From IMG/VR virus record IMGVR_UViG_3300034980_000250, positions 1-21,333 of that record: DNA of 21,333 nt, one strand, 5' to 3'. Position 1 is the stretch's first letter. Every line of letters starts with the position of its first letter. Of this stretch, positions 128 through 21,097 are shown piece after piece. This stretch comes from a virus. The notes under the pieces were generated by a model that ran no database searches, was not told where the DNA came from, and worked only from the letters and a program-made list of their open reading frames with translations. A program made the position numbers and the translations under genes.

Positions 128-1014
128 GAGATATAACCTCACTTGAATACAGGGAAACTTTTGCTGCTACCCAGCAGCTCCCAACAGCAGCGATTCCTAC
201 CATGCTGCCAACCTTGAACAAGCTGCTGAGAGATGAGGGAGGTGGTGAAGGCTTAGCCCCAGGCTGGGTCTGTGTAATTGGTGCAAACCCAGGCCATGCT
301 AAGACGCTGATCGGGCTCAACCTGGCAGCCAGTGCACTCAGCCACGGCCAGCCAGTCGGATACGTCTCCTTGGAGATGAGTACCAACCAGTTAGCGTCGA
401 GGTACTACGCTATCCAATCCGGTCTACCAGTAGCCTCGATCGAGAGAGGCAGCTTCAACCCTAGGATATGGGACAAGGTAGAGGGCTCGGTCGCAGCCAT
501 GCCTCCACTGTATGCACCGGACAAGGTGAGCTCACGCTGGGAGGACGTGGTCAGATTTGTGAAGGAGACTCACGACGATCATGGCGTTAAATTTTATGTG
601 CTCGATTACATTCAGCTTTGTGCGATAGGGGATTCTCAAAGCATTGCCGATGGCATCTCCAACGTGACCACAGATCTCAGGGCATGGGCAGTGAACAACG
701 ATGCGGTCATGGTGATACTGTCACAGTTCAACAGGCAGAGCTCATCGGATTACCAGACCAGGCCGCGCAGTCAATCACTACTCGGGGGCACTATATTGGA
801 AGCATCAGCCGACGTTTGTGCATTGGTAAATCACGCTGCTTTCAAGCGGGAGCATTCGAGCAATGGAGCGGGTAGGGCGTTGACGTATCTGTGTATAGAT
901 AAGAACCGTCACGGTGCTGCTCAAGTTGACATACCAATCGAGATATCGTTTTCTAACCTACGGGTATCAGAGCCCTTGCCTGACATCCTAGACGAGTGGC
1001 CGGATCCAAAATGA
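124..1014 (+). CDS. DnaB-like (SF4, RecA-fold) helicase ATPase
   Basis: A 296-residue RecA-fold ATPase with the motif order of the DnaB helicase C-terminal domain. In sequence: a P-loop GANPGHAKT (residues 53-61), SLEMS (82-86, DnaB motif H1a), hydrophobic strand plus DYIQL (Walker B, 159-165), SQFNR (200-204, DnaB motif H3), a GGTILEASADV segment (221-231, H4-like), and DKNRHG (259-264), which resembles the arginine-bearing C-terminal DnaB motif. The N-terminal primase-binding domain of cellular DnaB is absent; only about 45 residues precede the ATPase. The expected role is unwinding DNA at the phage fork. The P-loop has Ala where Gly normally precedes the Lys, so activity is not certain. 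It overlaps both neighbours by ATGA. A RadA- or KaiC-like recombination ATPase is the main alternative, but SLEMS and DYIQL favour DnaB. Confidence 0.82.
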   Translation: MRDITSLEYRETFAATQQLPTAAIPTMLPTLNKLLRDEGGGEGLAPGWVCVIGANPGHAKTLIGLNLAASALSHGQPVGYVSLEMSTNQLASRYYAIQSGLPVASIERGSFNPRIWDKVEGSVAAMPPLYAPDKVSSRWEDVVRFVKETHDDHGVKFYVLDYIQLCAIGDSQSIADGISNVTTDLRAWAVNNDAVMVILSQFNRQSSSDYQTRPRSQSLLGGTILEASADVCALVNHAAFKREHSSNGAGRALTYLCIDKNRHGAAQVDIPIEISFSNLRVSEPLPDILDEWPDPK

Positions 1015-1262
1015 GACAACGACTAGGCCATGACCCGTTGCTTGCCGATATTAAGCAAGCGGTTAATGAAGGGTACTTCGACGATAGGCAGCCGAGCGAG
1101 CTTGAGCTCACACCTGTCGAGGAGCTACTGAAACAAGTGGACTTGATGTCTCCCACCAGGAGGCGTGAATACTTAGCTGAGCTGGGGAATATAAGGCGTG
1201 GTACTCCGAGCTTGTCAGGTGTGAAGCCAAGAGAAGGGAGGCGCGAATGGTTGAGTAGATGA
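1011..1262 (+). CDS. Hypothetical protein, 83 aa
   Basis: The ATG at 1011 overlaps the helicase stop (ATGA), so translation is probably coupled. An in-frame GTG at 996 would overlap more and is less likely. The product is charged and probably mostly helical: residues 1-25 contain LLADIKQAVNEGYFDD, a central PVEELLKQVDLMSPTRRREYLAELGNI looks like two amphipathic helices, and the tail is basic. No membrane segment and no recognised domain. It could be a small helicase partner or DNA-binding protein because it follows the helicase directly, but nothing in the sequence proves it. Expression as a protein is supported by the packed cistron arrangement on both sides. Confidence 0.6.
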   Translation: MRQRLGHDPLLADIKQAVNEGYFDDRQPSELELTPVEELLKQVDLMSPTRRREYLAELGNIRRGTPSLSGVKPREGRREWLSR

Positions 1263-1613
1263 ATGAAACAGTTTCACATCAGCCCAGACTTTGGCAACCC
1301 ACGTCACTCCCTTAGAGGGCAAGGTGGCGACCTGGCGATGGCCGGTGCTGTAGTCGAGCTGGCGATTCGTGAGATGAGGACATCTACTAACCTTAAAATT
1401 CGTGTCAACGCTATAATATGGTTAGGTTCAACCCAAGCTACATTTTGGTTCGAGGTAATGGGACTGGAACAAGACTATGCGTTAGAAAATATGAACTGGC
1501 CCAAATACGCTAGCGAAGTGCTAGCGAAACCCGAGCTGATATTGCCAGTGGGGGTAATACATATGCTCCAAACTGGAATTAATGCCCTGTACTACCAGGA
1601 GGAGAATGTATGA
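1263..1613 (+). CDS. Hypothetical protein, 116 aa
   Basis: ATG 1263 follows directly on the TGA of the previous gene with no intervening base. There is no good Shine-Dalgarno sequence at the normal distance (GGGAGG lies more than 20 bases upstream), so translation is probably by reinitiation. The 116-residue product is soluble, with a hydrophobic middle (KIRVNAIIWLG and ATFWFEVMG look like paired beta strands) and a C-terminal helix LPVGVIHMLQTGINALYY. Part of the gene (about 1380-1560) is visibly richer in A and T than its neighbours, hinting at separate ancestry. No family recognised. A later start at ATG 1339 is possible. The stop overlaps the next gene by ATGA. Confidence 0.6.
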   Translation: MKQFHISPDFGNPRHSLRGQGGDLAMAGAVVELAIREMRTSTNLKIRVNAIIWLGSTQATFWFEVMGLEQDYALENMNWPKYASEVLAKPELILPVGVIHMLQTGINALYYQEENV

Positions 1614-1957
1614 AGGTCGAGATTAAGATCATCGGAGCGACCGACGCCGTGCCAATGGCCGTGGCCGAGGCAGCAGTTGCCGCAGCGTGTGAGGCGGGAA
1701 TGGAATCTGCTGTCGCCACCTACAGCTATGGCAACAAGCAGGTCAACCCACCAATCGAGTGGACAGCTCCAGCTCCAGAACCAGAGGAACAAGAAGTTGA
1801 AGTTGAGCAGGCCTCGGTGATGGAGGTCAAGTTCGCTTCGGTCATCGCTGCACGGCTAGCAGACGAGCTCAATGTGGCTCAGTCAGCGTTCGAGGGAATC
1901 AAGCCTAGCGGCAAGAAAGGCTACACAGTTTCCGACGTGAAGTGGATCGCTGAATGA
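1610..1957 (+). CDS. Small acidic protein with a C-terminal PSBD-like module
   Basis: 115 residues, with a strong Shine-Dalgarno sequence AGGAGGAG (1598-1605) and an ATGA overlap with the gene before. The N-terminal half (1-45) alternates beta-like (KVEIKIIG) and Ala-rich helical stretches. A Pro/Glu-rich linker (46-72, with APAPEPEEQEVEVE) follows. The last 40 residues (75-115) fit the pattern of the three-helix peripheral-subunit-binding/E3-binding fold: helix ASVIAARLADELNV, a loop FEGIKPSGKKGYT in the place of the usual G-T-G-x-x-G-R-I-T, and a final helix SDVKWIA. In 2-oxoacid dehydrogenases that domain binds partner subunits, and a related fold occurs in Lsr2-type DNA-binding domains. 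In a phage it is more likely a protein- or DNA-binding module. The fold assignment is by eye and unproven. Confidence 0.68.
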   Translation: MKVEIKIIGATDAVPMAVAEAAVAAACEAGMESAVATYSYGNKQVNPPIEWTAPAPEPEEQEVEVEQASVMEVKFASVIAARLADELNVAQSAFEGIKPSGKKGYTVSDVKWIAE

Positions 1958-2376
1958 TCAGCAACACAGGCTGGATTATCCTGTGCCTCCATGTACCACT
2001 GATCGCATGGGTGGTCATCAATAGGTTCACAGTGCTAAATCGTCTGGCAGATAAATACCTGCAACCCCTCCTACCAGGAGCTCTAGGCACGGGTAAGGCC
2101 TGGACAACCTGGGTGCATCATGCGCTGATCGCTCTCGTAGTGACAGCATACGTCGCAGTGTGGGGTCTGGTTCTGCCAGGCGACTCCTGGATCATAGGAG
2201 CTCGAATCGGCTCAGCAATTGCGCTGGTGCTGTACACAGTCAGAGAGACATACAACTGGAATTACCACGCCAGAGCTGGCACACCAAACAAGTGGGGCTG
2301 GTGGGATGGCTGGGCAGTTGACGGGATTATGGACACCGCTGGGCCAGTGCTCGTACACCTGCTGACCTGGCTATAG
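1954..2376 (+). CDS. Polytopic membrane protein, possible holin
   Basis: 140 residues with about three or four hydrophobic spans: residues 6-23 (GWIILCLHVPLIAWVVIN), 55-75 (HALIALVVTAYVAVWGLVL), 82-97 (IGARIGSAIALVLYTV), and a weaker C-terminal segment from about 126. Between spans 3 and 4 is a Trp- and Gly-rich loop (NKWGWWDGWAVDG). The start is fixed by the ATGA overlap with the previous gene. The product must sit in the inner membrane. Its size, multiple spans and place just before the terminase genes fit a holin, but no endolysin is adjacent in this window and I recognise no holin family, so the lysis role is a guess. Confidence 0.62.
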   Translation: MISNTGWIILCLHVPLIAWVVINRFTVLNRLADKYLQPLLPGALGTGKAWTTWVHHALIALVVTAYVAVWGLVLPGDSWIIGARIGSAIALVLYTVRETYNWNYHARAGTPNKWGWWDGWAVDGIMDTAGPVLVHLLTWL

Positions 2377-2381: not shown

Positions 2382-2762
2382 GTGCCTGAAACTCCGGCAC
2401 GTTCGGTAGAGCTCATTCCGCAGCCACACGGAGGCGCTCTCCAGCGTGGAAACCCAGGCAATAGCGGTGGTGGTACGCTCACCAAGAACATCCGTGAAGC
2501 TTTCCGTATCGACCTGGAGACAGCGCGGCAGCGCATTTCGGTGATCCTGGATGACCCAGACGCTGACCCGAAAGACATCATCTCGATCTTCGACAAGCTT
2601 GCGAAGTACAGCGTAGGAGAGAAGCGGGATGGCGTAGTAGTCGATCCAGAGCTGCTCAACGAGTTCTTCGCCGTGGTAGGGCGCTTCATCAGCGACGAGA
2701 AGGCGCTAGAGACCATACGAACAGAATGGCTTGATGTTCTCGGCAACAAGCTTAGAGCCTGA
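2382..2762 (+). CDS. Probable terminase small subunit
   Basis: 126 residues from a GTG at 2382, 5 bases after the membrane protein stop. The N-terminus carries PHGGALQRGNPGNSGGG (residues 15-31), a Gly/Asn/Pro-rich stretch I associate with a family of phage small-terminase-like proteins in which it precedes a helical domain. The remainder is helical (TKNIREAFRIDLETARQRISVILDD, then DIISIFDKLAKYSVG). The gene sits directly before the large terminase and overlaps it, the usual place of the DNA-recognition subunit, which would select phage DNA and present it to the motor. No clear helix-turn-helix is visible, so the call rests mainly on position and the N-terminal motif. Confidence 0.6.
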   Translation: MPETPARSVELIPQPHGGALQRGNPGNSGGGTLTKNIREAFRIDLETARQRISVILDDPDADPKDIISIFDKLAKYSVGEKRDGVVVDPELLNEFFAVVGRFISDEKALETIRTEWLDVLGNKLRA

Positions 2763-4419
2763 CGGGCTGCGGCAGCGTGCCGTCCTCCAGGAATACGAGA
2801 CCTTCGGGCAGCGTGGCGTGGCTGAGCCACACACAGAATACCAGGATAACCCAATCGGATGGTGCGTCGATAAGCTGGGTATCGCAGAGCACACAATCCG
2901 CTGGAGCCTTAACGATGGATACGACAGTCACCAGTGGGACGGTACTGCTGACCCGTTGTCCCAAGTGCTTGAAAGCCTTGCCGCCTGGGAAGATGTGGGA
3001 GTGGAGAGCGGAACCGGAACAGGGAAGACCTTTATCGGAGCAGCGATCGTGCTGTGGTTTCTGGCTTGTTGGGAGGACAGTATCGTCGTTACGAGCGCCC
3101 CAAAGCTATCACAGCTCACAAAGCACATCTGGAAGGAAATCGGAAACCACTGGCCGCACTTCCAGCGGCACTTTCCGCAAGCGGAGCTTCTGGCCTCTGG
3201 GGTAATACGCATGAGGCCTGCTGTCGAGGACAGAGAGACCTGGGCAGCCACGGCGTTCGCTTGTGGTGTTGGTGCAGAGGAAGCGTCAGCTACCAAGGCC
3301 CAGGGCTGGCACGCCGAGCATATGCTGATCCTGACCGAGGAGACGCCAGGAGTTCACCCAGCGATTATGACGGCGTTCGAGAACACCTGCTCGGCTCCAC
3401 ACAACCTACGACTCAGCTTCGGCAACCCTGACTACGAAGAGGACGAGCTCCACCAGTTCTGTCTACAGCCACTGGTCACTCACATACGGGTATCTGCCTT
3501 GGATCACCCAAACGTGGTCAGCGACGATCCATCCATCGTACCAGGAGCGGTCAGCGCATTCGCTATCGATCGACGTAAGGATCTGTACGAGCACATACCG
3601 ACGATGTACGAGAGCAGAGTCAGAGGTATTAGCCCCAAGCAAGCTACAGGTGTCGCACTCAACTTCGTTGAAGCTGACCACCTGGAGACCTGGGACGACG
3701 CCAACATGAAGAAGCAGAAATGGCCGATGTTCGCAGGCATAGACTTCGGAGCATGGCGATTCTCGTTCGTGCTCGCTGCCAGCGACCGTGCAAAGCGGCT
3801 GCACATCCTCGACGAGCTCTTCAGCCAGCAGGAGACCTTGTCGGTTAGGGCCTCGAAGATCAACGACCTGCTGACCAAGTACGGTGCTCCTGCCAGGACG
3901 CCGATCTGGGGAGATAGCGCCAACCCGCAAGACATCATGGAGCTCAACGCAGCATTCAGGAAGCTAAAAGTGAAGTACCGAGTCAGGGCGGTGGCTAAGA
4001 CCTCGGCAGAGGGCAAGTCATTCAGGGCAGCGTGCGTCGAGCGTCTGAACGACCTACTAGGCCGTAGAGCACTGATGTTCAGGAGAGACATAGGCGACAG
4101 CCACCAGTGGTACAAGGGCGCATCGGTCGCCAGCAAGGGCAGGATGATCAGAGGATCGAGGCTGTTGTGGGAGATCCGCAATTGGCGCTACCCTGACAGG
4201 AAGGTAGGCAAGGCCCAGCACCAGAATGTAGACGACGATAGTGCTGATGGAGCCGATGCCGTGGCAGCGTTACGTTACCTTGTGATGAGCTGGTGGCGAG
4301 CTGCTGCATACCGACCACCCAAGAACAGCAAGGCAAGCCGCAACAGGGACACTGGGCTCGAAGAGAAGTTCGAGCGCATGGCCCTACACAAGAGACAAGC
4401 CGAGAGGTATTCGTTTTGA
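2734..4419 (+). CDS. terL: Terminase large subunit (packaging ATPase and nuclease)
   Basis: A complete 561-residue large terminase, the motor that drives phage DNA through the portal and cuts it. Counting from ATG 2734: Walker A GTGTGKT (93-99), Walker B MLILTEE (197-203, with the catalytic Glu), and coupling motif SFGNP (228-232) form the ATPase. The RNase H-like nuclease follows with its acidic residues in order: Asp 337 in FAGIDFG, Asp 394 in WGDSANP, and Asp 505 or 508 in ADGADAVAALRY. The C-terminus is basic. The start overlaps the small subunit gene by 29 bases and lacks a clear Shine-Dalgarno sequence; TTG 2731 is an alternative start. All catalytic motifs are intact, so the protein should be functional. 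Confidence 0.95.
   Translation: MFSATSLEPDGLRQRAVLQEYETFGQRGVAEPHTEYQDNPIGWCVDKLGIAEHTIRWSLNDGYDSHQWDGTADPLSQVLESLAAWEDVGVESGTGTGKTFIGAAIVLWFLACWEDSIVVTSAPKLSQLTKHIWKEIGNHWPHFQRHFPQAELLASGVIRMRPAVEDRETWAATAFACGVGAEEASATKAQGWHAEHMLILTEETPGVHPAIMTAFENTCSAPHNLRLSFGNPDYEEDELHQFCLQPLVTHIRVSALDHPNVVSDDPSIVPGAVSAFAIDRRKDLYEHIPTMYESRVRGISPKQATGVALNFVEADHLETWDDANMKKQKWPMFAGIDFGAWRFSFVLAASDRAKRLHILDELFSQQETLSVRASKINDLLTKYGAPARTPIWGDSANPQDIMELNAAFRKLKVKYRVRAVAKTSAEGKSFRAACVERLNDLLGRRALMFRRDIGDSHQWYKGASVASKGRMIRGSRLLWEIRNWRYPDRKVGKAQHQNVDDDSADGADAVAALRYLVMSWWRAAAYRPPKNSKASRNRDTGLEEKFERMALHKRQAERYSF
4402..4407 (+). promoter_or_regulatory. Ribosome binding site for a TTG start
   Basis: GAGAGG lies 8 bases before TTG 4416. 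It supports TTG as the start of the next gene instead of an upstream codon inside terL. TTG 4416 also makes a TTGA overlap with the terL stop. Confidence 0.45.
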
Positions 4420-4715
4420 GCAATAGAGCGAAGAAGCGCAGGAAGGCACGAGAAGGCGACTACGATCGCAAGATGGTCACCGTCAAAGATCAAAGGGCCT
4501 TGCTTGTGGCGTACCATGAGAAATTCGTGGACCCGAGGATCCAGTTTCTGGAGGAGTACGTCTTCTACAAGAAGATGAAGCCCTGGGAGAAAGCTTGGTA
4601 TCACTGGCTCAACATCCGTAGCTGGTTCGGAGCTCGGTGGCGGGCGTTCGACAAGATGCGCTATGCACGCAAGTGGCATAAGAAGAACGATGAAATCGTG
4701 GAGCAGAAGACATGA
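4416..4715 (+). CDS. Small basic aromatic-rich protein, 99 aa
   Basis: The frame is open back to about 4293, but the part inside terL has no ribosome binding site. TTG 4416 overlaps the terL stop (TTGA) and gives 99 residues. The product is strongly basic: it opens with SNRAKKRRKAREG, carries an acidic/aromatic middle (RIQFLEEYVFYKKM), then a run rich in Trp, Arg and Tyr (WEKAWYHWLNIRSWFGARWRAFDKMRYARKWHKK). The C-terminal stretch could be an amphipathic, membrane-surface or nucleic-acid-binding helix. I recognise no family. Position between terminase and portal is common for small accessory proteins of head assembly or packaging. Confidence 0.6.
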   Translation: MSNRAKKRRKAREGDYDRKMVTVKDQRALLVAYHEKFVDPRIQFLEEYVFYKKMKPWEKAWYHWLNIRSWFGARWRAFDKMRYARKWHKKNDEIVEQKT

Positions 4716-5005: not shown

Positions 5006-5280
5006 TGGCGCAGGGCCTGAGCAAGAGCTCGACGCTTCCTGCGGTATCGATTGGCTTCGCTCTGAGCATCCTGGTAGCGACATGGGTAGCCAGCGGCAGG
5101 TTCAGGGAGATGCAGACTATTGACTTACAGAACGCTACACTGATCGAGGACATACGCTCGCGTCAGTCCAAGTACATAGGAGTTTCGGGGTTGCTCACAC
5201 AACGCATCGATGATCTGGAAGGCCGCATCAGAGACCTGGAAGTCGAGATGGCGGTACTCAAAGCCGAGCTCGCAAGATGA
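5005..5280 (+). CDS. Membrane-anchored coiled-coil protein, 91 aa
   Basis: One transmembrane segment near the N-terminus (about residues 12-31, LPAVSIGFALSILVATWVAS) followed by a charged region and a heptad-rich C-terminus (about 62-90, with TQRIDDLEGRIRDLEVEMAVLKAEL) that should form a coiled coil. This signal-anchor plus coiled-coil layout is that of inner-membrane spanins (Rz-like) and of some small phage accessory proteins. No outer-membrane lipoprotein partner is visible nested in or beside it, which weakens the spanin idea. The start is fixed by a TGATG overlap with the previous gene, and the stop makes an ATGA overlap with the next. Confidence 0.62.
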   Translation: MAQGLSKSSTLPAVSIGFALSILVATWVASGRFREMQTIDLQNATLIEDIRSRQSKYIGVSGLLTQRIDDLEGRIRDLEVEMAVLKAELAR

Positions 5281-5624: not shown

Positions 5625-7898
5625 ATGGCGACCCCTCTTAATACCACAGTCTCGTCTTCTGGTCACTACGGTGGCGATGATGCGTCAGCTCAGCCTGACA
5701 ATCAGATGGATGCGGCGGGCATGGGTGATCCGAGCGCGATCGCCAGAGAAGTAGCCGAGTTCCACCGCAAGGGCCTAGACAGCAAGCGATTCCATGATCT
5801 GACAGCCGAGAAGTACCTCATCCACATCGATGGCGAGGGTGATAACCAGTGGGCTGACCTGTACAACGGTGAGAGGATCCAGATCCCGCACAACCTGAGT
5901 GGCGTACCACGAGCTCAGAACAACCTGCTGCGTCCTATGGTGGACAACATGGTAGCCTACCACACGACGATGCCGTTCAGGTTCGTGGTGGAGACCAGGC
6001 CAGATCGCCAATCGAGAGAATCGGGAGCGATCGACCAGGCGTTCGCCAACTACATAGCAACTCAGCAGAACCTGAACAGCTTGTTCGCTGAAGCTATGTA
6101 CATGGCATCGGCTTACGGTCATTGCCCCGTACACGCTCAATGGCGTGACGATCCACAATTCGACGCCTACCAGCCTGTACACGCAGAAGGTATGCAGGGA
6201 CCACAACGTGGATCGATAGATTGCTGGGTAGGAGACCCGTTCGACACGGTATACTCGACTGGCGCAACTCGTGGCAACGTCCAGAGAATGACCTACGGAC
6301 GTGTAGTCAGCGCAGAGGGAGTGCGGCAGGCGTTCCCCGAGATACCAAACATCGAAGGCAGCACCAAGCTCAACTCATCGAGCAGGTTCCAGCGCACGGT
6401 CAGGAAATGGCTGATGGCTGGCAACTCGATTCACGGCACCTCGGCGCTGATGACCGGACAAGGTGGCGAAGAGCTCATAGCCTTGGTCTATCGCGAGATC
6501 GCCCCTGGGGCAGACGTAAACTACCCCTATGGACGACTTACGATGATCGCCCTCAACGGATCCGCGTCAACCGACGCGGCAGACGCCTCCGGCGGTGGCA
6601 CGACAGGTGGCTTCGGTAACGCCGTACTACTACACGACGGGCCTCTACCTGGTGGCTCATTTAGCTGTGTGCAGGTCTACAGCGCAAATCGCTTCGATGA
6701 CGTGCATGGTAAGCCGTATGTGGCCGATTTGGACGAGGACCAGGTCCAGCTCAACCAGCTAGAGACGCTGGTCAACGAGTTTGTGAGACGTTCGGTCAGG
6801 GCTCCACTGATCACTGCCGGAGTGATCGCAGACGACAGTGCGGCCTACATAGACGACGGTGAGATAGAGATCGATCCAGGAGCAGGCTTCGTGCCGCAGT
6901 ACCTGGAGCTCCCCTACCGTCACATACCGCTGCTTGAGAACAAGATCCAGCGCATAGAGGCTGGGATGTTCCGTAAGGGAGGCTGGCAGGCCGCGAGCCG
7001 TGGAGAGAGCAAGTCCGGTGACGCTGCTGCCAAGGTAGTAGCCCTGGCACGGGCAGATGACACCGTACACGGTCCTACCAACCAGAGATTCAGGGAGAGC
7101 GCCGAGCAGTTCATGGGTATCTGTTGGAATCTAATGAAGGAATACGGCGATGTGCCGTGGCTTGTGGATATAGCTGGTGACGAGATCGCACACCTCATCA
7201 AGCCCTACATCGACAGGAGCCAGCTCTCCGAGATGCTGCCGATATACCGACTCACGTCGGGGTTCGGTGCCACGACGGAGAATAAGGCACAGACGCTGAT
7301 GAATCTGTGGGGCATGGTAGATCCAAAGACAGGCGAGCGTGCCATCTCCACCAGGCAATTCAAGAAGCAATACCCAGACAGAAGCCTCTGGCCTGACGAG
7401 CTCGATCCACAAGAGATGCGAGAGCGTAGGGCTAAGGTCGTCAACCAGGGCATAAGGGAGGTGGTCAAGTCTTTCAGAGAGGAGTACGGCCTGGATCCCC
7501 AGCAAGTCACTGGTATGCAGAACCCTATGGTCGAGCAGATTGCACAGCATTTATGGCCTATCATTGACGGGCAGTACCCTATTATGATGGATGACGACAG
7601 CACAGCTCACCTCGAAGCGTTGTCTACGATGACGCAAGACGAGAGCGAAGACTCGATTGTGAGAAGGATAGCCATGCTCAGGCAGGATCAGTTCTTCAAA
7701 TGGCTGAGTGGACAACAGATATCGAGGGCGGCCCAGGTAGAGGCTCCCTCTCCTGGACAGCTAGCGGCGGCATCGACATCTCCTGGTGGATCACCAGGTC
7801 TTGCGAGCGCAGAAGCTGGCTCGCCCACGTCTGAAGCAATGAATACATCCACTACCGAGATATCAAAACTGACTCAAGCAGCGAAGGGTGCTGCATAA
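5625..7898 (+). CDS. Portal protein
   Basis: 757 residues, close in length to the large portals of short-tailed phages (P22 gp1 is about 725). The portal is the dodecameric ring at one capsid vertex through which the terminase loads DNA. Supporting stretches are RAQNNLLRPMVDNMVAYHT (about 96-114) with the following FANYIATQQNLNSLFAEAMYMASAYGH region, a stem/wing-like part EDQVQLNQLETLVNEFVRRSVR, and LENKIQRIEAGMF followed by a Gly/Ser-rich loop. The C-terminus has low-complexity Ser/Gly/Pro/Ala sequence. Position between terminase and scaffold is typical. The ATG has no visible Shine-Dalgarno sequence, unusual here for a highly needed gene; Met codon 5706 is a weaker alternative. Confidence 0.87.
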   Translation: MATPLNTTVSSSGHYGGDDASAQPDNQMDAAGMGDPSAIAREVAEFHRKGLDSKRFHDLTAEKYLIHIDGEGDNQWADLYNGERIQIPHNLSGVPRAQNNLLRPMVDNMVAYHTTMPFRFVVETRPDRQSRESGAIDQAFANYIATQQNLNSLFAEAMYMASAYGHCPVHAQWRDDPQFDAYQPVHAEGMQGPQRGSIDCWVGDPFDTVYSTGATRGNVQRMTYGRVVSAEGVRQAFPEIPNIEGSTKLNSSSRFQRTVRKWLMAGNSIHGTSALMTGQGGEELIALVYREIAPGADVNYPYGRLTMIALNGSASTDAADASGGGTTGGFGNAVLLHDGPLPGGSFSCVQVYSANRFDDVHGKPYVADLDEDQVQLNQLETLVNEFVRRSVRAPLITAGVIADDSAAYIDDGEIEIDPGAGFVPQYLELPYRHIPLLENKIQRIEAGMFRKGGWQAASRGESKSGDAAAKVVALARADDTVHGPTNQRFRESAEQFMGICWNLMKEYGDVPWLVDIAGDEIAHLIKPYIDRSQLSEMLPIYRLTSGFGATTENKAQTLMNLWGMVDPKTGERAISTRQFKKQYPDRSLWPDELDPQEMRERRAKVVNQGIREVVKSFREEYGLDPQQVTGMQNPMVEQIAQHLWPIIDGQYPIMMDDDSTAHLEALSTMTQDESEDSIVRRIAMLRQDQFFKWLSGQQISRAAQVEAPSPGQLAAASTSPGGSPGLASAEAGSPTSEAMNTSTTEISKLTQAAKGAA

Positions 7899-12102: not shown

Positions 12103-12641
12103 GACAGAGACTGAATAGAATTTCGAGACTGAAGCCACGCACCGTCCTGGGTGAGGACGAGACGATTATCGGCACACATACCGATGGCCGTCCTATCATT
12201 GAACGCACCTACACGAAGGACGTGCGCGAGGCAGTGCTCAACGAGAACGGCGAGCAATCGTGGAAGATGAACCAGCTAGGCATTCCAACGGTGCCGATCT
12301 ACGAGATCCGTCCAAAGAACCACACGGAGGTCTATGTCTGGGACGAGCTCCCAACAGGACACAACCATAAGAACTACGATTTCCGTGTAGATCCAGCAGA
12401 GATCGAGCGCAACGAGAAGAAGGATCGCGTCGAGACGCTGAAGGACGAGTTCTTCGAGGCGGCAGAAGAGCGAGGGCTCAGTGCCGACGATATAGCAGGG
12501 TTCATCGCTGACGGACGGGAAGAGAGCAAGTCCGATGCGACTGGATTCATAGAGGTAGAAGAAGTAGAAGAAGACGAGATCGCTGCGTTACCAGACAGAC
12601 GCCTGCCTCGAAGACGTAAACCCCAAACTACCGTGACCTAA
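12099..12641 (+). CDS. Hypothetical protein, 180 aa
   Basis: The start overlaps the previous stop (ATGA), with AGGAG at 12089-12093. 180 residues; strongly charged. The N-terminal 30 residues are basic (RQRLNRISRLKPR), the middle has beta-like stretches (IPTVPIYEIRPKNHTEVYVWDELP) and a helical acidic part (EIERNEKKDRVETLKDEFFEAAEERGLSADDIAGFIADG), and the C-terminus switches from very acidic (EVEEVEEDEIAAL) to very basic (DRRLPRRRKPQ). I recognise no family. Its place between head and connector genes suggests a virion or assembly role. The acidic-then-basic tail may bind DNA or the capsid inside; that is inference. Confidence 0.6.
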   Translation: MRQRLNRISRLKPRTVLGEDETIIGTHTDGRPIIERTYTKDVREAVLNENGEQSWKMNQLGIPTVPIYEIRPKNHTEVYVWDELPTGHNHKNYDFRVDPAEIERNEKKDRVETLKDEFFEAAEERGLSADDIAGFIADGREESKSDATGFIEVEEVEEDEIAALPDRRLPRRRKPQTTVT

Positions 12642-13339
12642 TGGCTGTACTCACCAATCTGGCAAGTCTACAGCGGGCCTTCTATAGGCTTACTGATACT
12701 GCTGCTGATGACGACTCTCTAATCGAGCACGACGACTCGTCCCTGGAGACCGTCAACCAGTTTCTTCAGTATGGGCTGAACGACGCTCAGGACTATCTGA
12801 TGGACTGCGGGCTGTCCGATCGGTGGGTGTCACAAGCCACGGCGATCACGTCGTGGAGCGGCACGGAAGCCAACGATGGTGGCCGCTACAAGGGGCTTGA
12901 GAGCGACTTCTTCCGGCTGGCTGGCGACGACATGACCAGTGCGCTCAGGAAGATAGATGGCACGCGCTGGGGTAACCTGGTGGACTTCAGGGACAGATTT
13001 AGGGTCAGAGGCAACCGCTACTGGCTGCAAGGCGAGAACCTGTGGATCGCCAGGGGTGCTAATCCACCTGCAAGCTTGATCTACGACTACCATCACCGAC
13101 TGCCTACGCTATCGAGCTCCACAGTCGATTTTCCTAGCGAGGATCGCCCGCTGATCGTGGCATACGCAGCAGAGCGAGCGATGGAAGACTCATGGCTTCC
13201 TGGTGGACAAGAGATGGAAGCCAAGATCCGAAACAAGGTCAGGACGTGCGAGCAACGTGCGTTCCGGCGCTCACGACGTAGCAGGACTCAGAGAAAGCTC
13301 AGACCGAAACCTACTCTGGGCACACATTATTTCACATAG
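12641..13339 (+). CDS. Probable head-tail connector (adaptor) protein
   Basis: 232 residues, TAATG overlap with the previous gene. The N-terminal part (LASLQRAFYRLTDTAADDDSLIEHDDSSLETVNQFLQYGLNDAQDYLMDCG) is helical and resembles the adaptor proteins that dock under the portal: a helix, a loop and a helix, with a central beta-like insertion (NRYWLQGENLWIARG, about 128-142) and a helical C-terminus followed by a basic tail (RRSRRSRTQRKLRPKP). Adaptors such as P22 gp4 and lambda gpW/HK97 gp6-type proteins sit at this genome position after capsid genes. The assignment is by position and general pattern, not by a diagnostic motif. A second possibility is a generic structural protein of the neck. 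Confidence 0.5.
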   Translation: MAVLTNLASLQRAFYRLTDTAADDDSLIEHDDSSLETVNQFLQYGLNDAQDYLMDCGLSDRWVSQATAITSWSGTEANDGGRYKGLESDFFRLAGDDMTSALRKIDGTRWGNLVDFRDRFRVRGNRYWLQGENLWIARGANPPASLIYDYHHRLPTLSSSTVDFPSEDRPLIVAYAAERAMEDSWLPGGQEMEAKIRNKVRTCEQRAFRRSRRSRTQRKLRPKPTLGTHYFT

Positions 13340-14146: not shown

Positions 14147-17100
14147 ATGGCAGCTTTTGGTATCAAGGCGATCCAACCACAGGACAACTCCCATATCCTT
14201 GGGTTCGCGACAGCTCGCGATACGACAGACGAGTCGTTGCTGGAGATATGGAACGGACCCAACTCTGGGACTCTTGTCTGCACGATAGACAAGGACGGCC
14301 AGATTCAGATAGCCAGCGGATCGGCGTCTCGTCCTAGTTACAGCTTCGAGGCCGACAAGGACTCTGGGCGCTATATGTCTGCCGCAGGCACGTTCCTCGA
14401 CGTGATCGCTGGAACGGCGGTAGGCACCTGGACGGCTGGCAAGCTGGCCCTGGCAGGGGACTTGGAAGTAGGCGATGACGTTACGCTGAAATCGGACGCA
14501 GCAGTCTTGAACTTCGGAGCTGACTCGGACGTAAGTCTGACGCACGTTGCCGATACTGGTCTACTCCTGAATAGCACCCGCCAACTTCAATTCAATGACT
14601 CAACGCAGTACATCGCTGGTACGAGCGGCACAGTACTGTCTATCGCGGCTACTGATGAGATCGACCTTACTGCTACTGCAATAGACCTGAACGGCACATT
14701 AGATGTGTCGGGCACGATCACTGTAGCTGGTAATGCAGACCTCAATGGAGATTTGGATGTAGACGGCACCACCAACCTAGATGCAGTAGACATTGATGGT
14801 GCGGTGCAAATTGATTCAACGGTTACGGTTGGAACCGATGGAAGCGGCCAAGACGTAATCTTCTACTCTGACACTGCTGGCGATCATGTCTTTTGGGATT
14901 CTAGCGCAGAGAAACTCACGATCACGGGGACCAACGGTGCAACCGCCCTAGATATAGCCGATGGAAATGTGACGATCTCAGACGACCTAGATGTAGACGG
15001 TACGTCAAATCTAGATGTAGTAGATATTGACGGAGCAGTAGACATGGCTAGTACGCTGCAAGTAGATGGGGCGATAACAGGCTCTAGCACCATACAGGGC
15101 ACGACAATCACTGCTACGACAGCCTTTGTTCCTGACGCATCAGATGGGGCTGCGCTAGGTACAACGTCACTAGAGTTCAGCGACCTGTATCTTGCCGATG
15201 GCGCGGTCATCGGATTAGGCGATGACCAAGATGTAACCCTGACTCACGTTGCCGATACCGGACTGCTGTTGAATTCCACGATGGCGCTGCAATTCAACGA
15301 CGCATCACAATACATCAACGCTCCGTCAGCCACGGTACTCGATATAAACGCGACTGACGAGATAGAGCTGAACGCAACTCTTGTTGATCTGAACGGAAAC
15401 CTTGATGTGTCCGGTACGACTACCATGACGGGAGTAGCCACGTTTACGGCCACTCCGGTGTTTAGCTCTGACCTCACAATCGAGGATGACCTGTATCTGG
15501 ACAGCGATGCGGCAGTCATCCACCTGGGTGAAGATGGAGATGTCACGCTAACTCATGTTGCCGACACGGGCGTTCTGCTCAACGGCACCATGCAGCTTCA
15601 GTTCAACGATTCCTCTCAGTACATCAACGCACCGTCAAACGCTATTCTCGACATCAATGCTACCGACGAGATTGAGCTCAATGCAACATTGGCTGATGTA
15701 AATGCTAACCTAGATGTTTCGGGTACTATAGTTGGAGCAAGTACCATTTCAGGCACAACGATCACTGCATCCACAGCATTTGTTCCAGATGCATCAGACG
15801 GAGCCGCACTAGGTACAACATCATTAGAGTTTAGTGACCTATTCTTAGCAGATGGTGCACAAATAGCGTTTGGTGACGATCAAGAGGTGACGTTAACCCA
15901 TGTAGCTGACACGGGCCTTCTGCTTAGTGATGATTCCGGCATTGGAACTACGCAACTACAGTTTGGCGATTCTGGAACGTATATCCACCAGTCAGCAGAT
16001 GGTGTTCTCGACTTAGTAGCAGATACTGAAATTGAGATCAACGCCACTACGATAGATGTGAACGGTGCGCTGGATGTATCTGGTACTAGTACGCTTACTG
16101 GTGCAGTAACTGCTACAGCAGGTGTTCTTCCTGCTGCGAGCGATGGTGCTGCACTGGGTTCTGCATCGCTAGAATGGTCAGATCTGTTTTTAGCAGATGG
16201 TGCGGTTATCAACTTTGGCGATGACCAAGACGTAACCCTTACCCACGTTGCAGACACGGGGTTGCTACTCAACACCACAATGCAGCTTCAGTTCTATGAC
16301 TCGTCTCAGTTCATCAACGCTCCATCGAATGCCATTCTTGATATCACTGCCACTGATGAGATTGAGCTAAACGCGACCGCCATTGATCTGAACGGTACGC
16401 TGGATGTATCTGGAACGCTAACTCTAGCTGGAAACGCAGACTTTAATGGCGACCTAGACGTAGACGGCACTACGAACTTAGACGTAGTAGACATCGACGG
16501 TGCGGTAGATATGGCTAGTACTCTAGGAGTTACGGGAGTCGTCACAGCCAACGCTGGTGTCGTAGTAGACAACATCACCATAGACGGTACGGAGATTGAT
16601 TTAAGCTCTGGTGATTTAACTTTAGATGTTGCAGGAGATATTAATCTTGATGCGGCAGGTGGAAATTTCTTATTTCAACAAGCCGGAACAACTTTTTTTG
16701 ATATACAGTTTGATTCAAGTGATGCTCAACTTATTAGCAGAGTTCAAGACAAAGATATTATATTTAGAGGTAATGATGGTGGTTCAATCATCAACGCCCT
16801 CACCCTTGATATGTCAGGAGGAGGTTGGGGTGTTTTTAATACTGGAATAACCTGCAAAGATGGCATCTACATAAATAACGCAGATGGAAGTGCAACCGTA
16901 GGTTATTTATATAATGATTCAAATGACTTCATTATTAGAAGTTACAACTCAGACAATGATATTATTTTTAAGGGAAATGATGGTGGTTCAACCATCACAG
17001 CACTCACCCTTGATATGTCTGATGCAGGGACCGCTACGTTTAATAATAACCTCGTTGCCTCTGGTACAGGGCCACACGCGATAGGAGCCAGCGTAAATGC

Positions 17101-18496
17101 TGGGATGAAAGTAAATCTTGGTGGTGCCTTCACAGGAGGTAGCACAACGCCACACTCTCTTAGGGTGGACGGCAGGTTGACATCGCCATCTTCAACCAGT
17201 GTAGTATACCAGAGCTATTTTGCGAATGCGCTTACCACCGATGCTTCCAGTCATACCGTAACAACAATTGCTCAAGTAGCGATCAATGAATGTGATATAA
17301 CACTTGGTTCTGGTTCGTCTGCAACTAACAGCGCATCACTCTATATCGCGAGTGCCGCAAGCGAAGCTACAAACAACTACGCACTCTGGGTGGATGCTGG
17401 AGATACCCGCTTGGATGGTGACGCCACAGTAGGTGGAAACCTCACTATCGGTGATGGTGGGGCAGAAGACCAGAAGATCGTGTTCGATGGGAACGCAGTG
17501 GACTTCTATATGGGGTTAGATGACACCGATGACGATTTCAAGATTGGCGTAGGCTCGACTGTTGGAAGCGGAGAACTGGGTTTCTTTATGCAAGCAGACA
17601 CGGGTCATGTCAATATCGGGTCCGACAACTTCGCTGGTTATCAATTAACCGTTCAAGGCGACGATGAAGAAGTCACAGCCAACTTCGGGTCAGCGTTATC
17701 GTCTACTGGCGATTGGAACGGCATAGGATTCGGGGCCATGACTCAACCGAAAGCTGGAATTTTATTCAAGCGTACTTCCAGCTACGGCGTTGGCGATTTG
17801 TATTTCTGTAATAATAATGAAGCAAGTACTACCCATGTCTCTTTGGCTGACACTAGTGACTATGCCATGAGGGTAGGTTCAAATAGGGTGGTGCAGTTTT
17901 ATGAGGATGTTCTAGTTACCGCCACCAAAAAGCTCTACTTCGACAGTGGATCTGACACATATATCCAAGGGGAAGTAGTAGGCAATCAGTTGGATTTCTA
18001 CACTTCTGGAGTCCTCGCTATACAAATTGACGGCAATGGAAATGTAGCCATCCCGAACGGAGCATTATCCAAAGAGTCTGGTTCGTTCAAAATCGACCAT
18101 CCTCTACCAGATAAAAAAGATACCCACCACTTAGTTCATAGCTTTATTGAAGGACCGAAAGCTGACCTAATTTACAGAGGTAGCACTGATCTTATTTCTG
18201 GATGGGCACAGGTGGATCTGGACGATGCGGCTGGCATGACTGAAGGCACTTGGGAGCTTCTGTGCCGTGATCCGCAGTGCTGGATACAGAACGACACAGG
18301 CTGGAGTTCGGTGCGTGGCTCTGTCGAGGGGAATACCCTGACAGTGGAATGTGAGTCAACCGACTCCGATGACACTGTAAGCTGGATGGTCGTGGCAGAG
18401 CGTTGTGACCCACATATGTATGACACAGGATGGACTGATGATGACGGTAGAGTCATCGTTGAGCCTGAGAAACCAGAACCGGAGGAAGAAGAGTAA
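14147..18496 (+). CDS. Long modular tail fibre or tailspike protein
   Basis: 1449 residues, by far the longest gene here. AGAGGGT (14133-14139) precedes ATG 14147. The N-terminal 120 residues include YSFEADKDSGRYM (about 66-78), a short motif common in fibre shafts. Residues 128-757 hold five about 63-residue repeats with VTLTHVADTG, interspersed with two shorter repeat families, and about 870-958 hold a 21-residue repeat. The Asp/Thr/Ala/Gly-rich beta pattern fits a trimeric beta-structured shaft. The last about 140 residues form a different domain starting at GSFKIDHPL and including HLVHSFIEGPKADLIYRG and VSWMVVAERCDPHM, a fibre end domain seen in other repeat-rich fibres, then an acidic tail (EPEKPEPEEEE). 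It probably binds the host surface. No S74 peptidase motif is evident. Confidence 0.82.
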   Translation: MAAFGIKAIQPQDNSHILGFATARDTTDESLLEIWNGPNSGTLVCTIDKDGQIQIASGSASRPSYSFEADKDSGRYMSAAGTFLDVIAGTAVGTWTAGKLALAGDLEVGDDVTLKSDAAVLNFGADSDVSLTHVADTGLLLNSTRQLQFNDSTQYIAGTSGTVLSIAATDEIDLTATAIDLNGTLDVSGTITVAGNADLNGDLDVDGTTNLDAVDIDGAVQIDSTVTVGTDGSGQDVIFYSDTAGDHVFWDSSAEKLTITGTNGATALDIADGNVTISDDLDVDGTSNLDVVDIDGAVDMASTLQVDGAITGSSTIQGTTITATTAFVPDASDGAALGTTSLEFSDLYLADGAVIGLGDDQDVTLTHVADTGLLLNSTMALQFNDASQYINAPSATVLDINATDEIELNATLVDLNGNLDVSGTTTMTGVATFTATPVFSSDLTIEDDLYLDSDAAVIHLGEDGDVTLTHVADTGVLLNGTMQLQFNDSSQYINAPSNAILDINATDEIELNATLADVNANLDVSGTIVGASTISGTTITASTAFVPDASDGAALGTTSLEFSDLFLADGAQIAFGDDQEVTLTHVADTGLLLSDDSGIGTTQLQFGDSGTYIHQSADGVLDLVADTEIEINATTIDVNGALDVSGTSTLTGAVTATAGVLPAASDGAALGSASLEWSDLFLADGAVINFGDDQDVTLTHVADTGLLLNTTMQLQFYDSSQFINAPSNAILDITATDEIELNATAIDLNGTLDVSGTLTLAGNADFNGDLDVDGTTNLDVVDIDGAVDMASTLGVTGVVTANAGVVVDNITIDGTEIDLSSGDLTLDVAGDINLDAAGGNFLFQQAGTTFFDIQFDSSDAQLISRVQDKDIIFRGNDGGSIINALTLDMSGGGWGVFNTGITCKDGIYINNADGSATVGYLYNDSNDFIIRSYNSDNDIIFKGNDGGSTITALTLDMSDAGTATFNNNLVASGTGPHAIGASVNAGMKVNLGGAFTGGSTTPHSLRVDGRLTSPSSTSVVYQSYFANALTTDASSHTVTTIAQVAINECDITLGSGSSATNSASLYIASAASEATNNYALWVDAGDTRLDGDATVGGNLTIGDGGAEDQKIVFDGNAVDFYMGLDDTDDDFKIGVGSTVGSGELGFFMQADTGHVNIGSDNFAGYQLTVQGDDEEVTANFGSALSSTGDWNGIGFGAMTQPKAGILFKRTSSYGVGDLYFCNNNEASTTHVSLADTSDYAMRVGSNRVVQFYEDVLVTATKKLYFDSGSDTYIQGEVVGNQLDFYTSGVLAIQIDGNGNVAIPNGALSKESGSFKIDHPLPDKKDTHHLVHSFIEGPKADLIYRGSTDLISGWAQVDLDDAAGMTEGTWELLCRDPQCWIQNDTGWSSVRGSVEGNTLTVECESTDSDDTVSWMVVAERCDPHMYDTGWTDDDGRVIVEPEKPEPEEEE
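14528..16417 (+). repeat. Five 63-residue fibre repeats (THVADTG family)
   Basis: Units at 14528-14716, 15230-15418, 15539-15727, 15884-16087 and 16229-16417. Four are exactly 189 bases (63 residues); the fourth is 204 bases, with a 5-residue insertion after LLL. Each runs from D/E-V-x-LTHVADTG, through LQFxDSxQ(Y/F)I and ATDEIELNAT, to DVSGT. Protein identity is high, but codons differ between units. These are coding repeats, not a CRISPR array. Confidence 0.9.
14750..16507 (+). repeat. Three 19-residue fibre repeats (DLDVDGT family)
   Basis: Units at 14750-14806, 14984-15040 and 16451-16507, each reading D-L-D-V-D-G-T-(T/S)-N-L-D-(A/V)-V-D-I-D-G-A-V. They alternate with the 63-residue repeats in the shaft. 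Confidence 0.9.
15137..16204 (+). repeat. Three 23-residue fibre repeats (ASDGAALG family)
   Basis: Units at 15137-15205, 15791-15859 and 16136-16204, each A-S-D-G-A-A-L-G-(T/S)-(T/A)-S-L-E-(F/W)-S-D-L-(Y/F)-L-A-D-G-A. Each comes just before one of the 63-residue units (second, fourth, fifth), so the two families probably moved as a composite module. Confidence 0.9.
16754..17020 (+). repeat. Two 21-residue fibre repeats (DIIF-GNDGGS family)
   Basis: Units at 16754-16816 and 16958-17020, each D-I-I-F-(R/K)-G-N-D-G-G-S-(I/T)-I-x-A-L-T-L-D-M-S. They lie in the AT-rich part of the fibre gene and, unlike the upstream families, keep more of their base identity. Confidence 0.88.
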
Positions 18497-18580: not shown

Positions 18581-19003
18581 ATGGCAAAAGATAAGGTTAC
18601 AATCACGAACTCTGAGCTCGGAACGGTGCACGCTGCACTCAGAGAATGCGGCAACACCAAGATCCCGATGGGCGTAGCACTTCGTATGGTAGAAGTGCAG
18701 AGGCTGATCAAGGATCGCATCGAGGACGTGCAGGAGCTCAATGGCGGTCTTGTCGAGCGATACGGTATACCTGGAGAGGGCGAAGAGACGGCCACCGAGA
18801 TGAGATCCGATATGCCTGGCTGGGCCGAGTACGTCGCTGGGTTCAACGACCTAATGGCCCAGAAGCTCAAGATCCCAGAACAGTTCACGCTCTACCAGGA
18901 CGGCGACGAGCTCGGCTGGGCAGAGGGAACGAACGGGGTGTCACTCTCACCGAACGCGATCATCGATATGGCAGCTCTGCTCCGCATCGAGAAGGCTGAG
19001 TAG
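18581..19003 (+). CDS. Small conserved-looking phage protein, 140 aa
   Basis: 140 residues; AGAGG (18567-18571) lies 9 bases before ATG 18581. The N-terminal half is helical (SELGTVHAALRECGNTKIPMGVALRMVEVQRLIKDRIEDVQELNGGLVERYG, residues 11-62). Its order of a helix, a K-I-P or K-L-P turn, a long helix and an L-x-E-R/K-Y-G ending recalls uncharacterised phage proteins of the DUF1617 type that accompany tail genes. A C-terminal part ends in SLSPNAIIDMAALLRIEKAE. The comparison is by eye and is not firm. The gene ends with two TAG codons in a row. It sits between fibre and nozzle genes, so a tail-assembly role is plausible. Confidence 0.6.
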   Translation: MAKDKVTITNSELGTVHAALRECGNTKIPMGVALRMVEVQRLIKDRIEDVQELNGGLVERYGIPGEGEETATEMRSDMPGWAEYVAGFNDLMAQKLKIPEQFTLYQDGDELGWAEGTNGVSLSPNAIIDMAALLRIEKAE

Positions 19004-19009
19004 TAGCAT

Positions 19010-20668
19010 ATGGCTGTGATGGTTCAAGAGCAGCAGCTCTCGTTTGCCAGGGGCATGAACGACACCGCTGCGCCTGTCGAGTATAAGCCAGACGAGTGCG
19101 AGCTCCTCCAGAATGGGCGTGTGTCCTTCGACGGGCAGACAATCGAGCGTAGAGGCGGCAGCGAGAAGCTGCACACTACTGCTCTTAATTCTGGAGCTCA
19201 AAGCTTTGGGGCCATCGAATATCACACGGCTGCTGGCACACAGCAGCTCGTAGTGTTCATGGGCGACAAGATGTACACGTCAATCAACGAGGGCGCGTCC
19301 TGGACACAGCAAGCTACAGGCCTCACAGAGGCGTTCTGGAGCCTGGTCATCATGCGCGAGGGTGCGGCCAACGTGCTCTGTGCAGCGAACGGTGGCACGA
19401 ATTCCTATCAGTGGAACGGATCCACTTGGGCCACGATATCGAACATCCCAGACGACGTGAAGTATCTGGCAGTGTTCGGTAACCGTCTCTGGGCTACAGG
19501 CCACAGCGGCATAGACGTGGTCGCTTCCAAGGTGGGAGACATAGACACCTGGGCCACCCCAGACGGGCTGACGGTCAAGGCACAGACCCATGACGGTGAT
19601 ATACACCTCACTGGGCTCTACCAGCTTGGTAGCGTGCTGATGGTGTTCAAAAGCGAGAGTACTGGCTACATCGAGGGATACGGGTTCAATACGCTGGAAG
19701 TCGAGGCTGGAGCTCGGGGTATATCACGATCGGTGGGCTGCGTGGGATCACGCACGATCCAGGCCGTGGGTAACCAGGGCGTGTGCTGGCTGAGCAAGCG
19801 AGGTGTGGAATCCTACCAGATCGGCGGCCAGATACAGCTTGCCACTCGCAGCATCCAGAAGTTCATGGACGGCATCAACTGGTCTCAGCTAACGGGCGAT
19901 GCATCAACGGCTGTCGGCTTGTATTGGCCGCAGAAGCACGAGTACTGGTGTGCGGTTCCGCTAACCTCGTCCCAGAACGACTACATGATCGGCTATCGCC
20001 CGCCGACAGAGGAGCACCCTCCAGCACTCATGCTGCACCACTATGCGTCTTCAGACGACGATACTCTGTATGTGGACAGCAGCGGCTACCTGGAAAGAAG
20101 CGCAACGTCGGATCGAGACCTTGGCGACACGCTGCTCGGGTATCTGACGACCACGCTCAGTGGTGGCGAGTACATGACGATAGATGATGACGGGTATCTC
20201 GCATTTGCGTCCACCGTACATGACCACGCTGCACTGTTCCTGGCAGATCTGGCTGGAGCTCAGTTGACCACGACACCAATCAGTTGTGGCTACGACGGGT
20301 TCGTGCGGCAACTGGAGAAGGGTGACACAGACAACGCCGAGCCAGGAGGTACTGGTGGCGAAGACATATCGTTCAAACTCGTGACACGTCCGTTCATGTT
20401 CCAGCAGGCGATGCGCGAGAAGCGGGCTCGTGTGGTGCGTGTTTCCTCGCAGCAGGCGTCAGCCAGCGAACTGACAGTGAGGGTTAAGGCAGACGGCGTG
20501 GACAGCACGGCACATACGATGAGTTTCAGCACCTCAGTCAAGCCAACCACCAAGAAAGCCAGGGTAGGTGCCAAGGGTGTTGCGTTGCCTGTAGAAGTCA
20601 CCTCTACAGCGGCTGTCAAGATAGCTGCTATTGAGCTGGCTGCTGGATTGCAGCGGGAGTCATGGTAA
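19010..20668 (+). CDS. Probable beta-propeller tail nozzle or hub protein
   Basis: 552 residues. The N-terminus FARGMNDTAAPVEYKPDECELLQNGRVSFDG followed by ERRGGSEKL (residues 12-53) has the pattern that opens P22 gp10/T7 gp12-like tail hub or DNA-stabilisation proteins: a set of residues on the D-x-x-x-L-x-N-x-x-(F/V) plan, then R-x-G. The middle shows beta-propeller-like repeats with aromatic-rich blades (QLVVFMGDKMYTSINEG, WSLVIMREGAANVLCAANG, YLAVFGNRLWATGHSG, VLMVFKSESTGYIEGYG). The C-terminal part (about 440-552) is a smaller beta domain. In short-tailed phages this protein sits beneath the connector and holds packaged DNA in. ATG 19010 lacks a strong ribosome site; ATG 19019 is possible. 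Confidence 0.62.
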   Translation: MAVMVQEQQLSFARGMNDTAAPVEYKPDECELLQNGRVSFDGQTIERRGGSEKLHTTALNSGAQSFGAIEYHTAAGTQQLVVFMGDKMYTSINEGASWTQQATGLTEAFWSLVIMREGAANVLCAANGGTNSYQWNGSTWATISNIPDDVKYLAVFGNRLWATGHSGIDVVASKVGDIDTWATPDGLTVKAQTHDGDIHLTGLYQLGSVLMVFKSESTGYIEGYGFNTLEVEAGARGISRSVGCVGSRTIQAVGNQGVCWLSKRGVESYQIGGQIQLATRSIQKFMDGINWSQLTGDASTAVGLYWPQKHEYWCAVPLTSSQNDYMIGYRPPTEEHPPALMLHHYASSDDDTLYVDSSGYLERSATSDRDLGDTLLGYLTTTLSGGEYMTIDDDGYLAFASTVHDHAALFLADLAGAQLTTTPISCGYDGFVRQLEKGDTDNAEPGGTGGEDISFKLVTRPFMFQQAMREKRARVVRVSSQQASASELTVRVKADGVDSTAHTMSFSTSVKPTTKKARVGAKGVALPVEVTSTAAVKIAAIELAAGLQRESW

Positions 20669-21097
20669 ATGCCAGGCGGTCCCTACAGTCTGCCTCTGGG
20701 CCTGCCGCCGGAGCTCGACAGATTCCTGCGCGGGCTTGCTTCGTTCTGGGACAACCAACAGAGGGTATCGATCGAGGGACAGAAGGACACTGGCACTGGG
20801 ACAGACGTGAACGTGCGGTTCGTAGCATCGAGAGCCACCCAGTTTGTGCAGGCACAAGTACAGAGCACTGCCACGAGCAAGGGCGGTGCGACCTACAGCA
20901 CCAGCAGCTATGTGAGCTCGACCAGGGTGGATTGCAGGAGCAACCGCCAGCAGGATCTGACGATCAGCAGGAACGGCACGAACCGCTACTACCTGTTCTT
21001 GATTCCGGTATTCCTGGAAGGGGACGGCAGCACATACACGAAGTTCGACGGCGACGATGGAGCAGATAAGATGGCCTTCGCAGACTTGGGTACATAA
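20669..21097 (+). CDS. Hypothetical virion-region protein, 142 aa
   Basis: ATG 20669 directly follows the TAA of the previous gene, with GGGAG upstream. 142 residues. After a Pro/Leu/Gly-rich start (PGGPYSLPLGLPPELDRFL) comes a helical segment, then beta-like strands rich in Thr, Ser and Val (DVNVRFVASRATQFVQAQVQST), an Arg/Asn/Gln-rich stretch (VDCRSNRQQDLTISRNGTNRYY) and YLFLIPVFLEGDG. No family recognised. The composition resembles small beta-structured tail components, and its neighbours are tail genes, so a virion role is likely but unproven. The stop overlaps the next gene (TAATG). Confidence 0.6.
   Translation: MPGGPYSLPLGLPPELDRFLRGLASFWDNQQRVSIEGQKDTGTGTDVNVRFVASRATQFVQAQVQSTATSKGGATYSTSSYVSSTRVDCRSNRQQDLTISRNGTNRYYLFLIPVFLEGDGSTYTKFDGDDGADKMAFADLGT

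Follow-up and report, generated by a model that had tools for sequence, protein, structure and literature searches.

A lineage-specific, HIP-like excess of the palindrome GAGCTC in a clade of phages

Introduction

Some cyanobacterial genomes carry a single palindrome throughout their length at about 1–2 copies per kb, and these words, of which HIP1 (GCGATCGC) and GGCGCC are examples, are known as highly iterated palindromes (HIPs; PMC4390886). The favoured word can switch between related cyanobacteria, densities run from about 500 to 2500 per Mb, and wherever a cyanobacterial genome carries a HIP, it also encodes a predicted methyltransferase matching part of that word (PMC4390886). Elhai proposed either that the methylated site is used by the cell or that a ratchet operates, in which mismatch repair guided by a methylated G-C step fixes new sites (PMC4390886). 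Here, we describe a comparable pattern for the hexamer GAGCTC in a stretch of 21,333 nucleotides from a virus (IMG/VR record IMGVR_UViG_3300034980_000250, positions 1 to 21,333; the whole stretch is called the window below) and in a clade of its relatives. The likeness lies in one palindrome spread genome-wide at a similar density and in lineage-specific switching between words. The differences are that the clade consists of phages, that the word is GAGCTC, that the excess is 2–3.4 fold, and that we only infer the methyltransferase. The signature is real, lineage-specific, and unusual, and it is HIP-like in anatomy while falling well short of proven HIP membership.

Two further points of comparison come from phages themselves. 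Phages avoid restriction sites (PMC6286503, in which a term search did not turn up GAGCTC), and the palindrome content of the window is alike in this respect, while GAGCTC runs the opposite way in that the recognition word is not depleted. Certain phages of cyanobacteria, namely, Nostoc phage N1, phage A1, and Planktothrix phage PaV-LD, are rich in HIP1 and resemble the window in being phage genomes with one strongly enriched palindrome. They differ in that their word is the HIP1 of the host group, is raised at least 20-fold, and, in N1 and PaV-LD, is accompanied by annotated DNA methyltransferases. We found no report of HIPs in phages in the literature searched, which is weak evidence given its partial coverage.

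Results

The window contains 36 copies of GAGCTC (Table 1), or 1688 per Mb, at coordinates identical to those listed in a first-pass annotation made from the sequence alone. Among all 4096 hexamers it is the commonest and has the largest excess under both an order-2 Markov model and a shuffle of synonymous codons. Base composition predicts 6.0 copies, in agreement with the five to six that the annotation had expected by chance. Markov models of order 1, 2, 3, and 4 predict 9.7, 10.6, 13.0, and 23.7, respectively, and the last of these values is partly circular, as the palindrome itself makes up 36 of the 57 occurrences of GAGCT and 36 of the 61 of AGCTC. The synonymous-codon shuffle (300 runs) gave 10.7 ± 2.8 copies with a maximum of 19. 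When codon-junction dinucleotides were held as well, together with the number of copies of each of the other 63 palindromes, the shuffle gave 11.2 ± 3.0 with a maximum of 20, which rules out a by-product of purging other palindromes. The annotation had named two results that would undo its claim, a Markov model predicting about 36 copies and a shuffle preserving protein and codon use that reaches the same count; neither occurred, with the order-4 model and the stricter shuffle remaining at the values above.

GAGCTC is compatible with the encoded proteins at 98 places, of which 36 (37%) are occupied, as compared with 18% for the next palindrome and 0% for the median one. By codon phase, the observed and expected counts are 20/7.0, 10/1.9, and 6/2.35 for phases 0, 1, and 2. 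The annotation had argued from copies in all three phases that one favoured codon pair was not the whole cause, and the excess is indeed present in every phase, which rules out a codon-pair effect as the sole cause and indicates that whatever raises the word acts on DNA. The GAGCTC excess is thus real and at the DNA level.

This excess stands out from a background of avoidance. Six-base palindromes together number 160 in the window, as opposed to about 342 expected; 35 of the 64 are absent, and CAGCTG occurs 0 times vs. 18.6 expected. The first-pass statement that phages avoid such palindromes therefore holds for this phage as well. The ratio of observed palindromes to the codon shuffle is 0.49, close to that of lambda (0.53), T7 (0.44), N4 (0.52), and Arthrobacter phage Ottawa (0.40). 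Lambda, T7, and N4 likewise have no copy of roughly half of the 64 words. Overall palindrome avoidance in the window is normal for phages and fits the reported avoidance of restriction sites (PMC6286503); GAGCTC is the exception. Avoidance was extreme in Halorubrum phage HF2 (L144), with a ratio of 0.07 and 56 of 64 palindromes absent from the coding part of 21 kb. Separately, the non-palindromic pair ATCAGG/CCTGAT is absent from the coding strand of the window (0 vs. 8.3 and 6.8 expected), perhaps reflecting an asymmetric restriction site.

Relatives of the window were gathered from viral contigs with terminase, capsid, portal, and tail queries, and their GAGCTC counts are given as observed/expected under the codon shuffle. 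The near relatives are enriched (G016 53/16.7, L022 21/5.8, L002 13/3.4, and L064 17/5.7), as is a second subclade (G002 32/15.1, L009 24/8.6, L024 20/10.4, and L025 16/7.7). The clade-wide excess is 2–3.4 fold, GAGCTC ranks top among the palindromes in most records of the enriched clade, and densities in the relatives are 1285–2007 per Mb. Other relatives are neutral (L018 8/6.9, L019 5/6.4, and L070 3/2.1) or have no GAGCTC at all (G005 0/13.3, G008 0/10, and G009 0/10.1, and also L014, L017, and L030), and avoidance is strong in distant relatives (G019 1/20.9, G020 4/20.0, G021 3/35.4, and L032 1/6.8). In a tree of portal proteins, the enriched records form one group that requires one change (support 85/87). 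A tree of terminases does not resolve that depth and needs two changes, while remaining compatible with one. The most economical reading is that GAGCTC switched from avoided to favoured inside this phage family. Enriched and non-enriched relatives came from the same IMG samples (L024 and L014 from 3300009786; L004, L019, and L030 from 3300010883), so habitat is not the cause.

Two observations on these relatives stand apart from the GAGCTC excess. G008 and G009 (L043–L046), which have no GAGCTC, show roughly twofold CTCGAG (20/9.2 and 19/7.9), mainly in phase 0, and codon context may explain this rise. In G016, a terminal open frame (L036 3–8573, minus strand) spans 2857 codons or more, runs off the contig, and has no Pfam or PHROG match.

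To place these values among other genomes, we considered reference phages and bacteria. For 14 of the 19 reference phage stretches, no palindrome exceeds a z of 4.3, while GAGCTC reaches 8.1 in the window and 9.1 in G016. The remaining five all infect freshwater cyanobacteria. HIP1 is observed 39 times for 1.2 expected in Nostoc phage N1 (L131 and L136), 14 for 0.7 in A1 (L137), and 11 for 0.3 in PaV-LD (L140). The other two lack HIP1 and favour different words, each in more than one phase: GTTAAC in Anabaena phage A-4L (L138; 30/10.4, plus 7 copies in 2.9 kb of noncoding sequence) and GGGCCC in Microcystis phage Ma-LMM01 (L139; 13/2.7). Across the bacterial stretches, GAGCTC rises to at most about 1.7 fold by codon shuffle (e.g., host_L085 24/13.8 and host_L104 35/20.4), and other palindromes there reach a z of 8.4 (CGATCG 82/43.1).

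These comparisons bear on the strongest rival explanation, in which phages released from restriction took on a host-like codon-context or oligonucleotide bias (the GAG-CTC pair or a preference for AGCT) and no site-specific process was involved. Phase 0 does hold the largest absolute share of sites, with Glu-Leu written as GAG CTC in 20 of 42 pairs, and some bacterial stretches show a mild excess as well. The roughly twofold excess of the sister subclade, as seen in G002, is also mainly in phase 0 (23/9.9, with 3/0.85 and 6/4.75 in phases 1 and 2), and codon context may contribute to it. However, enrichment in phases 1 and 2 equals or exceeds that in phase 0 in the window and in G016, where all three phases are raised (16/2.45 and 4/1.55 in phases 1 and 2), and this is where the explanation struggles. 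A 3.3-fold excess of GAGCTC was reached by no control phage or bacterial stretch, and release alone would give a onefold value, as seen in L018 and L019. We consider a combination of release and bias unlikely, while giving it more weight than the other rivals below.

The density of sites, about 1.3–2 per kb, persists across the clade, and their positions turn over like those of other hexamers. Of the 23 window sites aligned with G016, 18 are retained (66% for all hexamers), and of the 25 aligned with G002, 8 are (23% for all hexamers), although 32 sites are present in G002. Chi sites offer one parallel. If GAGCTC were a Chi-like word, or another host DNA-processing site acting in recombination, nuclease protection, or replication, it could protect phage DNA, and a lineage-specific, genome-wide gain without fixed positions would suit a protective word that varies between hosts. 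However, Chi sites are non-palindromic and strand-biased, and a palindrome cannot show strand bias. Chi in E. coli is also sparser than one site per 0.6 kb, the density that GAGCTC reaches here. We regard this account as improbable.

Repair offers another parallel. Very-short-patch repair at Dcm sites in E. coli shows that repair can raise one methylated word, and a C5 methyltransferase together with a Vsr-like enzyme would suffice to raise one palindrome at the DNA level. Biased repair of deaminated GAG(m5C)TC would convert GAGTTC and GAACTC to GAGCTC. The likeness to the E. coli case ends with the donor words, which are undepleted here (12 vs. 12.0 expected in the window; 72 vs. 78 ± 8 pooled over the clade), and no C5 methyltransferase was found in the clade records. 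Over the clade, no class of one-mismatch neighbours of GAGCTC is depleted. The chance that Vsr-like repair accounts for the excess is slim. Flanking bases gave no fixed extension into a longer motif (symmetrised −1 base: C 183, G 121, T 112, and A 82), and that candidate was set aside.

The first-pass annotation had also noted sparse stretches, and these are real, with consecutive sites at 13114, 15674, and 18614 and at 10171 and 11749. Its further proposal that the excess follows modules is not supported. The long fibre-like gene (1449 codons) has 1 copy vs. 0.98 expected from its own codon use, so the near-absence that had been reported stands as a count of one and is mostly a matter of protein and codon content. 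Permitted places are used less often in this gene (1 of 16) than elsewhere (35 of 82; Fisher p 0.005, codon use ignored). With codon use and the excess elsewhere allowed for, about 3.5 copies are expected (Poisson P about 0.14), and the excess may be weaker within the fibre gene. Like its surroundings, this gene avoids palindromes, with 0 copies of the 29 palindromes that are absent from G016, as against 23.4 expected. The 36 sites are neither clustered nor evenly spaced, and their spacing is indistinguishable from random placement among the permitted places. A module or packaging pattern was rejected: the fibre count and the spacing are as expected, and the fibre gene shows the common avoidance. 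A related idea, that a phage-encoded protein of packaging, transcription, or the nucleoid binds GAGCTC, gains something from the spread of sites across the structural region. The random spacing, positions no better conserved than those of other hexamers, and relatives with 71–79% identical terminases that have no GAGCTC all speak against it, and we consider it highly improbable.

A methyltransferase and a host were both sought. Outside the enriched clade, a C5 methyltransferase is present in G005 (L041 14325–15815, minus strand) and in G004, both without GAGCTC; by the Markov measure, the two palindromes raised most in G005, TCCGGA and ACCGGT, have CCGG in common. A scan with the DnaB helicase for the early region missing from the clade records returned L002 alone, which was already among the relatives. 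Distant capsid relatives were found on two contigs only of metagenome-assembled genomes (MAGs), one of Planctomycetota (51%) and one of Deltaproteobacteria (44%), which are weak hints as to the host. GAGCTC and CTCGAG were counted in 531 genomes (294 + 237) of those two phyla. In a few GAGCTC-rich, CTCGAG-poor genomes (G385 and G491), GAGCTC is raised only 1.7 fold by the order-2 Markov model and 1.1–1.2 fold by codon shuffle in the stretches read, and their palindrome profiles correlate poorly with that of the window (0.31–0.35). G385 (L073–L077), from the same phylum as the Deltaproteobacteria MAG, contains 7092 GAGCTC and 200 CTCGAG in 7.0 Mb, and CTCGAG is strongly avoided in the part read (4 vs. 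68.8).

Products of the window identified with Pfam and PHROGs are a DnaB-like helicase, the large subunit of a terminase, a portal protein, and a major capsid protein. No close named relative was found when its terminase and capsid were compared with those of named phages, and no tRNAs were found as a clue to the host. The gene at 14147..18496 matched no family, and "fibre" is the name given to it in the first-pass annotation.

Table 1. Positions of GAGCTC and of two genes discussed in the text, in window coordinates.
Feature	Position	Strand	Basis or remark
GAGCTC site 1	528..533		exact match
GAGCTC site 2	738..743		exact match
GAGCTC site 3	1104..1109		exact match
GAGCTC site 4	1865..1870		exact match
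GAGCTC site 5	2078..2083		exact match
GAGCTC site 6	2198..2203		exact match
GAGCTC site 7	2409..2414		exact match
GAGCTC site 8	3445..3450		exact match
GAGCTC site 9	3814..3819		exact match
GAGCTC site 10	3940..3945		exact match
GAGCTC site 11	4630..4635		exact match
GAGCTC site 12	5025..5030		exact match
GAGCTC site 13	5266..5271		exact match
GAGCTC site 14	5911..5916		exact match
GAGCTC site 15	6471..6476		exact match
GAGCTC site 16	6906..6911		exact match
GAGCTC site 17	7398..7403		exact match
GAGCTC site 18	8397..8402		exact match
GAGCTC site 19	8954..8959		exact match
GAGCTC site 20	9147..9152		exact match
GAGCTC site 21	9602..9607		exact match
GAGCTC site 22	9666..9671		exact match
GAGCTC site 23	10171..10176		exact match
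GAGCTC site 24	11749..11754		exact match
GAGCTC site 25	12345..12350		exact match
GAGCTC site 26	13114..13119		exact match
GAGCTC site 27, sole one in fibre gene	15674..15679		exact match
GAGCTC site 28	18614..18619		exact match
GAGCTC site 29	18734..18739		exact match
GAGCTC site 30	18908..18913		exact match
GAGCTC site 31	19100..19105		exact match
GAGCTC site 32	19194..19199		exact match
GAGCTC site 33	19710..19715		exact match
GAGCTC site 34	20256..20261		exact match
GAGCTC site 35	20711..20716		exact match
GAGCTC site 36	20914..20919		exact match
Portal protein gene	5625..7898	+	PHROG 156 portal, E 1.4e-6; basis of the enriched-clade tree
Long fibre-like structural gene, 1449 aa	14147..18496	+	GAGCTC-poor, same palindrome avoidance

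Discussion

The reading that we favour, at a probability of roughly 40%, is that the clade of the window carries a HIP-like GAGCTC signature, most likely by way of a GAGCTC methyltransferase in its hosts. As in HIPs, the word is in excess beyond composition and codon use, it is not bound to one phase, and its density in the window and in the relatives falls inside the range of 500–2500 per Mb. By analogy, this density and the central G-C step of GAGCTC point to marking by a methyltransferase. Under such a scheme, phages of the clade would replicate in hosts that mark or read GAGCTC rather than cut it, and the marking factor would most likely be a methyltransferase of SacI-type specificity, probably that of the host. 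Marked sites might confer a small advantage in replication or survival, or methylation-guided mismatch repair might tend to fix new sites, as in the ratchet that Elhai proposed for HIPs. The relatives without GAGCTC would then have hosts that restrict that word. The first-pass suggestion of a sequence-specific process such as modification is still the best reading, while the packaging role that it had also offered is without support. A fuller version, in which a HIP system exists outside the cyanobacteria and an uncultured host methylates GAGCTC and the marking selects for the word or ratchets it up in its phages, is possible but more doubtful; a word that related phages have to purge would in this way accumulate in the clade.

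Several findings weigh against a HIP-like origin. The excess does not attain the size of HIP1, being 2–3.4 fold as compared with 39 copies for 1.2 expected in Nostoc phage N1. Conservation of single sites does not significantly exceed that of other hexamers (18 of 23 vs. 66%), and the excess in G002 lies mainly in phase 0. No methyltransferase of the Pfam families PF01555, PF00145, and PF02086 was found in the enriched-clade records, which are fragments without the early region. A host with GAGCTC as its HIP was not found among the 531 genomes, and their GAGCTC-rich members lack the pattern of the phage.

The function of HIPs has so far been debated on the basis of chromosomes of cyanobacteria. 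Because a purged word became a favoured one in this phage clade, alongside sisters that are free of GAGCTC, the clade provides a natural comparison in genomes that are small and evolve fast, and might help to tell selection apart from a repair ratchet. Our findings suggest that enriched palindromes, in addition to missing ones, can inform on host and methylation from phage sequence. If a HIP system of the kind outlined above exists outside the cyanobacteria, palindrome profiles of phages would record both the restriction and the methylation history of their hosts.

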